Positions 1 through 51,744 of a DNA stretch of 64,000 nucleotides are shown here, piece after piece. Under the pieces are notes generated by a model. It searched no databases and had not been told where the DNA came from. It worked only from the letters and a program-made list of their open reading frames with translations. Origin of the DNA: Planctomycetia bacterium (lineage in GTDB: Bacteria; Planctomycetota; Planctomycetia; Gemmatales; HRBIN36); the NCBI GenBank assembly GCA_016795155.1, contig JAEUIE010000036.1, forward strand, positions 1 through 64,000. Direction: 5' to 3'. How positions within the stretch are numbered: position 1 is the first letter of the stretch; every line of letters begins with the position of its first letter. The translations under genes and the position numbers were made by a program.

Positions 1-42
1 CTGAAAATCCTTAGGTCGCCGGTTCAAGCCCGGCTCTGTCCA
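1..42 (+). tRNA. tRNA-Phe (GAA), 3' half only
   Basis: The window opens inside a tRNA. Visible parts are an anticodon loop CTGAAAA (anticodon GAA if T at position 2 is U33), the 3' side of the anticodon stem (TCCTT), a five-base variable loop, a perfect T arm (GCCGG, loop TTCAAGC, CCGGC), the 3' acceptor strand TCTGTCC and discriminator A. The 5' half lies outside the window, so the anticodon stem and acceptor pairing cannot be checked. CCA is not encoded. Confidence 0.6.
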
Positions 43-49
43 CTCGATG

Positions 50-45955: not shown

Positions 45956-46990
45956 TTACTGATTCTGCTGAGATGCCCGTAAAAGCCTGTCGCGAATTGC
46001 CATCCATTCCACACTGTCCGGGGGCAAAGTAACAATGATGCGGTGTGGACTGAGCAGGTCCAGCGTGTGCAGGGTTGCATAAAACTTATGAGAATAAGTG
46101 ATCGGTTCTGGGGGTAAAGGCATCACAATCACCTTAGTTGAAGGTGCAAAGGCATCTCGGTTACCCAATGGTACCCAGCCGATACGGTGACCTTCCCGGA
46201 TCAATTCTTCTACACGAATTCTACCTTCATCGTTATTCTCTGTCAGTTCCAAGGGTGTGTAGGGGGAATAATGCTTTTCAAGCAGTCCTGGTGAAAGTTG
46301 AGGCTGTTCAGGCGAAACGACAAGGGGTTGGTAACGATCAACTGGTTTGCCTAAGATCTGTTCAATTACCTGAACGCCAATAAAGCCTGGTCGAAGAAGT
46401 CGCGGTTTCGCTTCTGTCAGGTCGATGACTGTCGATTCAATTCCACGGGTGGTTGGCCCGCCATCGAGAACCAGTGGCAATCGTCCCTCCAGATCACGAA
46501 GCACGTGTTTCGCTTCAGTGGGAGATAACCGGCTGGAGCGATTGGCACTCGGGGCAGCAATGGGAAGTTCAACCGCATGTAGCAGGGCTTGTGCGACAGG
46601 GTGTGCAGGCACACGAACCGCAACCGTGGGGCCTCCGCCAGTTACTGTTGCAGGCACACATGATTTTTTTGGAAGTACCAGCGTCATGGGGCCGGGCCAG
46701 AAACGGTCAGCTAATCGGGCAGCATCTTCGGGCCAGGTTTGTGCCACTTGATGAACTGCCTCCGCATGGGAAACGTGTACGATCAGTGGATTCTTGGCAG
46801 GCCTGCCTTTGGCATTGAAAATGCCTTGAGCTGCTTCAGCATCGAGGGCGTTGGCACCGATGCCATACACGGTTTCAGTGGGGAAAGCAACCAGCCCGCC
46901 TTTGCGCAGGATTTCTACTGCTTTCTGAATGATCTCAGGTTCAGGATGATCGGGATTAACTGCAAGGACTTGGGTCTGCATAGCGTTCAT
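45956..46990 (-). CDS. tsaC: Threonylcarbamoyl-AMP synthase, Sua5 long form
   Basis: A 344-residue enzyme that makes threonylcarbamoyl-AMP from threonine, bicarbonate and ATP, the first step to t6A37 in tRNA. The YrdC domain shows FPTETVYGIGANA, KGRPAKNPLIVHV, LPIAAPSANRSS and GIESTVIDL. A C-terminal Sua5 domain of about 130 residues follows, as in YwlC/Sua5 proteins. The start MNAMQ at 46990 was chosen; the upstream frame lies in the divergent pdxH region, 80 bp away. Confidence 0.94.
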   Translation of the reverse strand: MNAMQTQVLAVNPDHPEPEIIQKAVEILRKGGLVAFPTETVYGIGANALDAEAAQGIFNAKGRPAKNPLIVHVSHAEAVHQVAQTWPEDAARLADRFWPGPMTLVLPKKSCVPATVTGGGPTVAVRVPAHPVAQALLHAVELPIAAPSANRSSRLSPTEAKHVLRDLEGRLPLVLDGGPTTRGIESTVIDLTEAKPRLLRPGFIGVQVIEQILGKPVDRYQPLVVSPEQPQLSPGLLEKHYSPYTPLELTENNDEGRIRVEELIREGHRIGWVPLGNRDAFAPSTKVIVMPLPPEPITYSHKFYATLHTLDLLSPHRIIVTLPPDSVEWMAIRDRLLRASQQNQ

Positions 46991-47070
46991 TGTAGGAATT
47001 GGAAGCAGGTGCAAGCAAATGCCAGCAGAGTTCTTATGCATATCATAGCTCCAGAAGCAGGAGCGTGCAC

Positions 47071-47709
47071 ATGGTAGATCTATCTCAGTTGCGACAGGAA
47101 TATGGCAAACTTGGTTTGTCGGAAGCAGATGCGAACACAGATCCCATCGAGCAGTTTCAGAACTGGTTTCACGAAGCAGTTGCTGATAACCTGGTCGAAC
47201 CCCATGCCATGGTGCTGTCAACGGTATCACCGGAAAGTAAGCCTTCGTCCCGGGTAGTTCTGCTTCGCCACGTTTCACACGAAGGATTTACGTTTTTCAC
47301 CAATTACCTGAGCCGAAAGGGTGTTGAACTAAATCAGAACCATGCTGCATCTTTATTATTTTTCTGGGGACAACTCGAACGGCAAGTTCGCGTCGAAGGG
47401 CATATTGTTAAGACCGATAGCTCAACTTCAGATGAATATTTCTCCAAACGTCCCCGCGACAGCCAATTGGCAGCAGTAATTTCTGCTCAAAGCAAGGTCG
47501 TTGAATCGCGCAAGGTACTGGAAGACAGAATGACCAAACTCTCTGCAGAATTAGATGGCAAGCCAGTTCCCAGGCCGGAACATTGGGGCGGCTATATTCT
47601 GATCCCGGAATCGATTGAATTCTGGCAGGGAAGACCGAGCAGACTGCATGATCGGCTGCGATATCGAAAAGTCAACAACCGTTGGTTGATGGAAAGGCTC
47701 AGTCCATGA
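47071..47709 (+). CDS. pdxH: Pyridoxamine 5'-phosphate oxidase
   Basis: A 212-residue FMN enzyme that oxidises pyridoxamine or pyridoxine 5'-phosphate to PLP. Family signatures: PSSRVVLLRHV (FMN loop), FFTNYLSRKGVEL, ALLFFWGQLERQVRVEG-like region and the C-terminal WQGRPSRLHDRLRYRK. AGGAG is eight bases before the ATG at 47071, and no clear start exists upstream despite the open frame. Divergent from sua5. Fully typical length. Confidence 0.95.
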   Translation: MVDLSQLRQEYGKLGLSEADANTDPIEQFQNWFHEAVADNLVEPHAMVLSTVSPESKPSSRVVLLRHVSHEGFTFFTNYLSRKGVELNQNHAASLLFFWGQLERQVRVEGHIVKTDSSTSDEYFSKRPRDSQLAAVISAQSKVVESRKVLEDRMTKLSAELDGKPVPRPEHWGGYILIPESIEFWQGRPSRLHDRLRYRKVNNRWLMERLSP

Positions 47710-50888: not shown

Positions 50889-51506
50889 ATGTCGAATGCA
50901 GTCACCAATGCTCCTCCAGTTACCATGGATCGCCATCCCCTGGGGCTGCCTGCCGGCAGCATTCGAGCGTTGCTTTCATTGGGAATAGCGGGAGCATTCC
51001 TGTTGTATCTTTGCCACCCCAAAGCGACGCATGTTCCGCTGTATCTGCACTTTCTGACATTCGCCCTTTTCCTTTTTTTCGCCAGTCATGGAAGAACGAT
51101 CGGAACCGGTGGCCCATCTCCTTTGTTTTTACCGGCCGGTATTTTGCGATTCATCATTGTGGCAGCCATTGTCGGAGTGGTAGCTTGGCGAGGCTGGCTT
51201 GATCCCCAGGATGTCGTACAGCGTATGCGGCCACAGGAAAGCGAGTTGGATGCCTGGGGTATCATGTTTGCTGCTACCGTTGGAGGGTTTTTCCTCGGTT
51301 GGCTTATCGCTCACGGGCCCTGGCGGAAATCTCCCGTTTTTCAGGATTTTCTGGCATGGATAGCACTGGTTGCACTACTCATGATGCTGGCTGAAGCTCT
51401 CTGGAAAGGCTTTATTGATCCTGCAGGCATCAAAGTCGGCAACAGGCCAATGTGGGAATCACTGCTGCTGGGCGTGGTCACTTTCTATTTTGGTTCACGA
51501 TCGTAA
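50889..51506 (+). CDS. Membrane protein, 205 residues, unknown
   Basis: A 205-residue protein with five or six hydrophobic helices (LLSLGIAGAFLLYL, LHFLTFALFLFF, RFIIVAAIVGVVAW, MFAATVGGFFLGWLIA, WIALVALLMMLAEALW, SLLLGVVTFYFG). AGGAG lies six bases before the ATG. No domain recognised. Its stop codon is two bases from the 3' end of the atypical tRNA-Tyr gene, which runs toward it from the opposite strand, so the two transcripts converge directly. Confidence 0.75.
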   Translation: MSNAVTNAPPVTMDRHPLGLPAGSIRALLSLGIAGAFLLYLCHPKATHVPLYLHFLTFALFLFFASHGRTIGTGGPSPLFLPAGILRFIIVAAIVGVVAWRGWLDPQDVVQRMRPQESELDAWGIMFAATVGGFFLGWLIAHGPWRKSPVFQDFLAWIALVALLMMLAEALWKGFIDPAGIKVGNRPMWESLLLGVVTFYFGSRS

Positions 51507-51507
51507 G

Positions 51508-51593
51508 TGGGCACTGGAGGAATCGAACCTCTCGCCTTCCACCACACCAATTAATGGCATCGGATTTACAGTCCGACATGTGGAGCAATGCCC
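51508..51593 (-). tRNA. Atypical tRNA-Tyr-like gene (GTA), 8/4 acceptor/T fold
   Basis: An 86-base element with anticodon arm TCGGA/TCCGA, loop CTGTAAA, anticodon GTA. The T loop TTCGATT is closed by only four pairs (GAGG/CCTC), but the acceptor can form eight (GGGCATTG with CAGTGCCC, one G-U), giving the 8/4 instead of the 7/5 layout. Discriminator is A and pair 1-72 is G-C, both correct for bacterial Tyr. Only nine bases separate acceptor and anticodon stem, too few for a D arm, while 28 bases lie between anticodon and T stems. It may be functional, a permuted or minor tRNA, or a pseudogene. Confidence 0.55.
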
Positions 51594-51613
51594 CGAAATA
51601 ACGCAAGAAGAAA

Positions 51614-51659
51614 CTGCCTGCCAGTTTCATGACTGTCCTCATGAAGAACAGGCAGGCAG
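51614..51659 (-). other. Long hairpin between the two atypical tRNA genes
   Basis: Outer arms CTGCCTGCC (51614-51622) and GGCAGGCAG (51651-51659), inner arms TTCATGA (51626-51632) and TCATGAA (51639-51645), loop CTGTCC. On the minus strand the hairpin is followed by TTTCTTCTTG, so it may be a weak terminator or a processing signal between tRNA-Cys-like and tRNA-Tyr-like sequences. Confidence 0.65.
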
Positions 51660-51665
51660 CCTCCA

Positions 51666-51744
51666 AGTCACAGGAGGGAGTCGAACCCCTTATCATCGGT
51701 TTTGCAGACCGACCCCTCGCCATGAAGGTTCAGATTCCTGCGAC
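51666..51744 (-). tRNA. Atypical tRNA-Cys-like gene (GCA), 8/4 acceptor/T fold
   Basis: A 79-base element with anticodon arm TCGGT/ACCGA, loop CTGCAAA, anticodon GCA, and a normal five-base variable loop. The T stem has four pairs (GGGG/CCCT, loop TTCGACT), and the acceptor has eight (GTCGCAGG with CCTGTGAC, one G-U). Discriminator U73 fits cysteine identity. The segment between acceptor and D arm is about eight bases, not two. D stem CCTT/AGGG with loop CATGGCG can form. It lies 72 bases upstream of the tRNA-Tyr-like gene on the same strand. Confidence 0.6.

Follow-up and report, generated by a model that had tools for sequence, protein, structure and literature searches.

The window analysed here, 64,000 nucleotides in length, comprises the first 64 kb of contig C36 in a 5.3-Mb draft genome that has Planctomycetota as its relatives. 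Two tRNA-like genes, one of Cys(GCA) type and one of Tyr(GTA) type, lie on the minus strand between a short reading frame and a membrane-protein gene:

52027-51827, minus strand: 66-aa reading frame with a plausible ribosome site, its end 82 bases upstream of the Cys gene
51666-51744, minus strand (51744 to 51666): Cys(GCA)-type 8/4 tRNA of 79 nt, read from the sequence, with a homologue in genome G032
51609-51664, minus strand: strong 14-bp hairpin between the two tRNAs, with a U-rich tail after it (MFE -34.6 kcal/mol, z -4.9)
51508-51593, minus strand (51593 to 51508): Tyr(GTA)-type D-armless 8/4 tRNA of 86 nt, with discriminator A at 51508
50889-51506: 205-aa membrane-protein gene flanking the pair

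No clear relatives of the 66-aa frame turned up in 60 genomes. Homologues of the 205-aa gene are found in 45 of 61 genomes (its own genome counted), and the stretches fetched around the homologues examined contain no tRNA-like element. The hairpin between the genes, which a simple terminator scan did not pick up, is possibly a terminator, a spacer or a repeat. A simple scan also gave no clear minus-strand promoter for the pair.

The only tRNA that ARAGORN reports in the window is a tRNA-Arg at 21.3 kb, and it finds no other tRNAs in the 3.2-kb locus around the pair. At its cut-off, Rfam RF00005 also reports only the tRNA-Arg in the window and neither of the two elements, for which permissive Rfam settings give only tRNA-Sec matches below threshold (30.6 and 28.4 bits). 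The host genome encodes 47 canonical tRNAs, an ordinary tRNA-Cys(GCA) and tRNA-Tyr(GTA) among them, plus a tRNA-Sec, and the window pair is therefore redundant. The lowest score among the 47 belongs to a second tRNA-Leu(UAG) (L038; G000:C53:197612-197693), in which the variable and T region is altered. The contig edge truncates one tRNA, of which the T arm and 3′-end remain at window positions 1-43 (TCGCCGGTTCAAGCCCGGC). A threonylcarbamoyl-AMP synthase gene (Sua5/TsaC, tRNA t6A modification; 45959-47278, minus strand) lies a few kb from the pair, probably by chance.

Structure of the two elements

On the minus strand, the 5′ part of the Cys element reads GUCGCAGG-AAUCUGAA-CCUUC-AUGGC-GAGGG-GUCGGU-CUGCAAA-ACCGAU-GAUAA and continues as GGGG-UUCGACU-CCCU-CCUGUGAC-U. 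Its parts are as follows:

51744-51737 with 51674-51667, minus strand: acceptor, 8 bp
51736-51729, minus strand: 8-nt linker ahead of the D arm
51728-51714, minus strand: D arm of 5 bp with a 5-nt loop
51705-51703, minus strand: anticodon, on a 6-bp anticodon stem
51666, minus strand: discriminator U, after a 4-bp T stem

The variable region is short (5 nt) and has no bulge. The Cys gene is thus of 8/4 type, its D arm is displaced, and its role is probably that of the Tyr gene.

The Tyr element, also read on the minus strand, begins GGGCAUUG-CU-CCACAU-G-UCGGA-CUGUAAA-UCCGA-U-GCC and continues as AUUAAUUG-GUGUGG-UGG-AA-GGC-GA-GAGG-UUCGAUU-CCUC-CAGUGCCC-A. Its distinctive features are the following:

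51578-51583, minus strand: 5′ strand of helix X, CCACAT, in the place of the D arm, pairing with 51547-51542
51567-51569, minus strand: anticodon GUA
51556-51558, minus strand: 5′ strand of stem V (variable arm), GCC, pairing with 51536-51534
51542-51547, minus strand: 3′ strand of helix X, GTGTGG, in the variable region
51539-51541, minus strand: UGG after helix X, invariant in 46 of 46 sequences of alignment A8
51534-51536, minus strand: 3′ strand of stem V, GGC

With neither a D arm nor a 5-bp T stem, this is no canonical 7/5 cloverleaf. The fold has an 8-bp acceptor and a 4-bp T stem. Where the D arm would be, the D-position strand instead joins the variable region in a helix of 6 bp, which stem V crosses to form a pseudoknot. 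A first MFE fold, with the helix in the register UCCAC/GUGGA, was overturned by the homologues, which follow CCNNNN/NNNNGG. Only one nucleotide separates helix X from the anticodon stem, which suggests that the two are stacked, and the UGG beyond helix X may serve in place of G18-G19 and dock onto the T loop.

The original prediction had described two atypical tRNA genes, each with an 8-bp acceptor, a 4-bp T stem and an A-C mismatch at 49-65, carrying identity bases for Cys (GCA, U73) and Tyr (GTA, G1-C72, A73), with an eight-base linker before the Cys D arm. All of these are present in the sequence, and a Cys/Tyr pair of such form is indeed no standard feature. The absence of a Tyr D arm is borne out by the lack of a D hairpin both in the element and in every family member. 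The 8/4 geometry stands but is an incomplete account of the Tyr element, whose D arm is replaced by a helix to the variable region; likewise, the stretch of 28 bases between its anticodon and T stems exists but is not unpaired, since it holds one strand of helix X and the pseudoknot stem.

Homologues, covariation and distribution

Folding energy by itself is unconvincing for either element (z -1.2 for Cys, -1.7 for Tyr), and it is the conservation of homologues that rules out a chance origin. For the Cys element, a single-sequence covariance model searched against 119 genomes recovered a 79-nt homologue in G032 (61.2 bits), in which the 8-nt linker, the 5-bp D stem and the 49-65 mismatch are all as in the window. 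All 23 of 23 pairs are kept between the two sequences, 11 of them with changes on both sides. The G032 homologue lies within a dense tRNA array and is missed by both ARAGORN and Rfam. It is the sole clear homologue of the Cys type across the 119 genomes, 392 genomes of the phylum and a viral scan: model R1 gave no further clear 79-nt homologue in the 392 genomes, where its matches were 71-72 nt long, and the scan of viral contigs gave no match. A 78-nt R1 match in G389 was rejected on inspection, as its layout differs.

The Tyr element proved to have many more relatives. A DNA search of 60 relatives with this element returned chance matches only, and blastn searches of phage and plasmid sequences using the window pair returned mostly ordinary tRNAs. 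The single-sequence model R2 found homologues in G089 and G114 (64.5 and 37.6 bits; 119 genomes), each within a dense tRNA array and each overlooked by ARAGORN as well as by Rfam. A genome collection of 84,980 species was then scanned with a pattern based on the 3′ half of the Tyr elements (GGTGG N4-9 GAGGTTCRATTCCTYC). The D-armless architecture is present in 35 of the 57 stretches from these GTDB genomes, nearly all of the 35 loci being from Planctomycetota (Pirellulales, Planctomycetaceae, Phycisphaerae, Kuenenia). Named strains that carry the family are Lacipirellula limnantheis, Bythopirellula polymerisocia and Thalassoglobus neptunius. In IMG/VR, a second pattern yielded at least 44 loci with this architecture; the matches listed are mostly Tyr, with Arg(UCU, CCU), Ile(UAU) and Trp(CCA) also represented. 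An unannotated Arg(UCU) member occurs in an isolated phage, Nitrincola phage 1M3-16.

The D-armless Tyr-type family comprises at least 84 distinct sequences, and the nearest relative of the window Tyr element among the members listed is 78% identical (about 22% divergence). Its prevalence in Planctomycetota is roughly 14 of 392 genomes, a figure based on 11 candidates scored per genome and whose weakest matches include ordinary tRNA-Sec genes. Lack of conservation in related genomes, one of the outcomes that would have counted against the original prediction, is not what was observed: the Tyr family is patchy yet widespread. The family model R3 scores the window Tyr element, itself one of the 46 sequences of the model, at 92.3 bits.

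Covariation was assessed on alignment A8 (46 sequences), with pairs counted on the pseudoknotted structure. Overall, 98.5% of cells are paired, compared with 75.1% after shuffling and 41-53% with slid partners, while 256 cells are changed on both sides, compared with 61 after shuffling; double changes occur in 19 of the 26 pairs. The acceptor, anticodon and T stems, those expected of an adaptor, covary, with 99.5, 97.4 and 100% of their cells paired. Changes on both sides are seen in 4 of the 6 pairs of helix X (columns 11-16 with 49-54) and in 2 of the 3 pairs of stem V (columns 36-38 with 61-63), where 97.1% of cells are paired. When 53 sequences sharing less than 90% identity were counted separately, pairing was seen in 205/212 cells for the variable portion of helix X (shuffle maximum 158) and in 128/159 for stem V (shuffle maximum 117). 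Among the 84 listed members, a 3-bp hairpin in positions 9-17 is possible in none, 49-65 is unpaired in 77 and the 8-bp acceptor is perfect in 82. The UGG after helix X is found in all 46 sequences of A8, partly by construction, as GGTGG was in the search pattern for most of them. The patterns were drawn from the first homologues, so that conservation of GGTGG and of the T arm is partly built in; the double changes are not.

Identity and place in tRNA arrays

The discriminator and the 1-72 pair agree with the amino acid of the anticodon, the lone CCU member apart. A73 is present in 68/68 and G1-C72 in 67/68 of the GTA members listed, U73 in 3/3 of the GCA members listed, and the CCA (Trp) member has G73. 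The CCU (Arg) member is a misfit, with U73 and no arginine discriminator.

Family members are usually found inside tRNA arrays. In the planctomycete arrays L211, L216 and L229, D-armless Cys(GCA) and Tyr(GUA) elements occur together, with the Cys element upstream, the order also seen in the window. Another tRNA-Tyr was present in only one of 44 arrays with at least 10 ARAGORN tRNAs and a Tyr-type element (fetched loci of 8-18 kb), within the stretches fetched, compared with tRNA-Asp in 37, Asn in 32, His in 31 and Phe in 30. The near absence of a second tRNA-Tyr indicates that the D-armless element is the tRNA-Tyr of the array. A canonical tRNA-Tyr is additionally encoded by three named hosts. 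An RNA ligase gene (PF09414, phrog_548) lies inside the array of G490, and a homologue is about 1 kb from the element in G443, a genome of the same genus; RNA ligase genes inside or near arrays with the D-armless tRNA-Tyr are at L408:9447-10088 and L388:1-420.

Several further features of arrays and of other tRNA loci were observed. A conserved protein of about 266 aa without a Pfam or PHROGs match is encoded inside planctomycete tRNA arrays (L408:8257-9099, L409:4992-5792, L212, L244, L246, L166). The G014 array (L154:5676-7871), on an 8.3-Mb contig, contains at least 18 tRNAs, with 8/4-like Glu(UUC) and Trp(CCA) members. A tRNA-Ser(UGA) with a tiny D arm (GTGC-TT-GCAC) is found at L155:5070-5157 (G008) and L156:4791-4877 (G012).

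Interpretation and known systems

The window pair probably represents intact accessory tRNA genes of the kind carried by phages and planctomycete arrays, here standing alone, with the Tyr gene belonging to an apparently undescribed D-armless class. Minor functional tRNAs are also the best fit among the three options of the original prediction. Against this reading, the pair lies outside any array, has no clear promoter and is interrupted by a terminator-like hairpin.

The same isolation would suit a functionless remnant, starting to decay, of either an array or a phage cluster of tRNA genes. Such a remnant could account for a pair that is alone here while its relatives are in arrays, that is redundant beside complete ordinary tRNAs, and whose nearest listed Tyr relative is only 78% identical. 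It is nevertheless unlikely, because neutral decay as far as the approximately 22% divergence of the Tyr element should break pairs, whereas 23/23 Cys and 26/26 Tyr pairs are intact and the identity bases are kept. The decayed copies allowed for in the original prediction are disfavoured on the same grounds, as all helices are intact and the changes between relatives are compensated.

Less probable again is codon compensation, in which the pair would be extra tRNAs serving the mobile elements or phages that introduced them, without any bearing on defence. The tRNAs of phages and arrays frequently span the majority of amino acids, and among hypotheses for phage tRNAs, codon compensation is the older one (PMC10264068). 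It leaves unexplained, however, why the D and variable regions were rebuilt while the acceptor, anticodon and T loop were kept, and an RNA ligase gene within one array is suggestive of RNA damage. It is very improbable that they are charged tRNA-like RNAs with a non-ribosomal use, such as donating amino acids or regulation: the 66-aa frame with its plausible ribosome site is on the same strand just upstream of the Cys gene, and a D-armless shape could bar an RNA from some translation steps, but no aminoacyl-transferring enzyme was recognised nearby, the frame lacks clear relatives in the 60 genomes, and the Tyr type takes the slot of a translation tRNA in arrays with a discriminator that tracks its anticodon, which also disfavours the regulatory RNA proposed originally for this type.

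If the pair consists of accessory tRNAs, as favoured here, it is probably used in translation. In the Tyr RNA, the 8-bp acceptor and 4-bp T stem add up to the usual 12 bp, and positions 11-16, where a D arm would start, pair with the variable region, with stem V closing over them as a pseudoknot. Stacking of helix X on the anticodon stem would restore an L-like shape, in which the docked UGG could stand in for the missing D loop. The host TyrRS would be expected to charge this RNA through G1-C72, A73 and GUA, and UAU and UAC would be read. Artificial D-armless tRNA-His is accepted by E. coli translation (PMC11551756). Conversely, the irregular soil 8/4 tRNAs were not charged by E. coli enzymes in vitro, according to the account of Mukai 2017 in PMC7609411.

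The rebuilt D and variable regions could keep translation going when nucleases cut ordinary tRNA-Tyr. Phage tRNA-Tyr protects against the PtuAB of retron-Eco7 and Septu, which deplete tRNA-Tyr, and Septu PtuAB cuts tRNA-Tyr in the variable loop (PMC11555353, PMC13096335); for array tRNAs, an anti-defence role is proposed in PMC12803027. Because of these papers and the RNA ligase near arrays, protection of translation would most likely be the role of the Tyr type, and the window pair is perhaps resistant to tRNA-cutting defences. The wider proposal is favoured only modestly: that bacteria and phages naturally possess D-armless tRNAs, missed by the annotation tools applied here, with GUA, GCA, UCU, CCU, UAU or CCA anticodons, in which the variable region supplies a stem through a pseudoknot and which translate under tRNA-cutting defences.

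Array tRNAs and 8/4 tRNAs are already known, and it is the D-armless Tyr class that is apparently undescribed. No description of a D-armless pseudoknotted bacterial tRNA was found in searches of the open literature, the irregular sequences of Mukai 2017 being the main risk of overlap. These allo-tRNA-like sequences from soil metatranscriptomes, as far as PMC7609411 describes them, have an 8/4 branch, are polycistronic and carry an extra loop between the acceptor and D stem, much like the window Cys element. The same description sets them apart from the Tyr family, as they keep a D arm and the family has none, although overlap is possible. The tRNA array units of mobile elements (M. avium linear plasmids, phages) share clustered redundant tRNA genes and a proposed anti-defence role with the present family; the accessible text of PMC12803027 and PMC5966550 does not describe a D-armless pseudoknotted fold or 8/4 geometry, and the window pair, unlike the many dense tRNA genes of such units, stands alone.

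The tRNA-Tyr of phages T5, SP15 and T6, which counter retron-Eco7 and Septu, are likewise extra tRNA-Tyr from mobile elements, with the Septu cut site in the variable loop, but are treated as cloverleafs (PMC11555353, PMC13096335). Mitochondrial tRNA-Ser and the engineered mini HisT (PMC11551756) resemble the Tyr type in being adaptors without a D arm; they simply lose the arm, whereas the Tyr type, in bacteria and phages, substitutes a 6-bp helix and a pseudoknot. Cytosolic tRNAs are said to vary only in arm size (2024 paper, PMC11551756). A conserved D-armless pseudoknotted family, if confirmed, would break this rule in nature and provide another way of building the tRNA shape. It would also reveal a blind spot of the annotation applied here, with ARAGORN leaving the tyrosine slot empty in many arrays, and would allow the idea that phage tRNAs counter nucleases to be tested directly with a single pair of molecules.

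True allo-tRNAs have 8/4 or 9/3 geometry, serine identity and a long variable arm. The Cys element differs from these in its 5-nt variable region and discriminator U, and the Tyr element in its A73 with GUA and its pseudoknotted variable region, which forms no simple long arm. The selC* tRNA-Cys shares GCA, U73 and 8/4 geometry with the window Cys element, but differs in its A51a bulge and its long variable arm of tRNA-Sec type, both absent from the window element. A tRNA-Cys(GCA) of about 94 nt is present elsewhere in Planctomycetota (L158:3610-3703 in G003; L395:637-730 in G415). The G003 copy has a long D stem, a long variable arm and U73, scores 56 bits against the tRNA-Sec model and looks like selC*, a type that a review lists only from other phyla.
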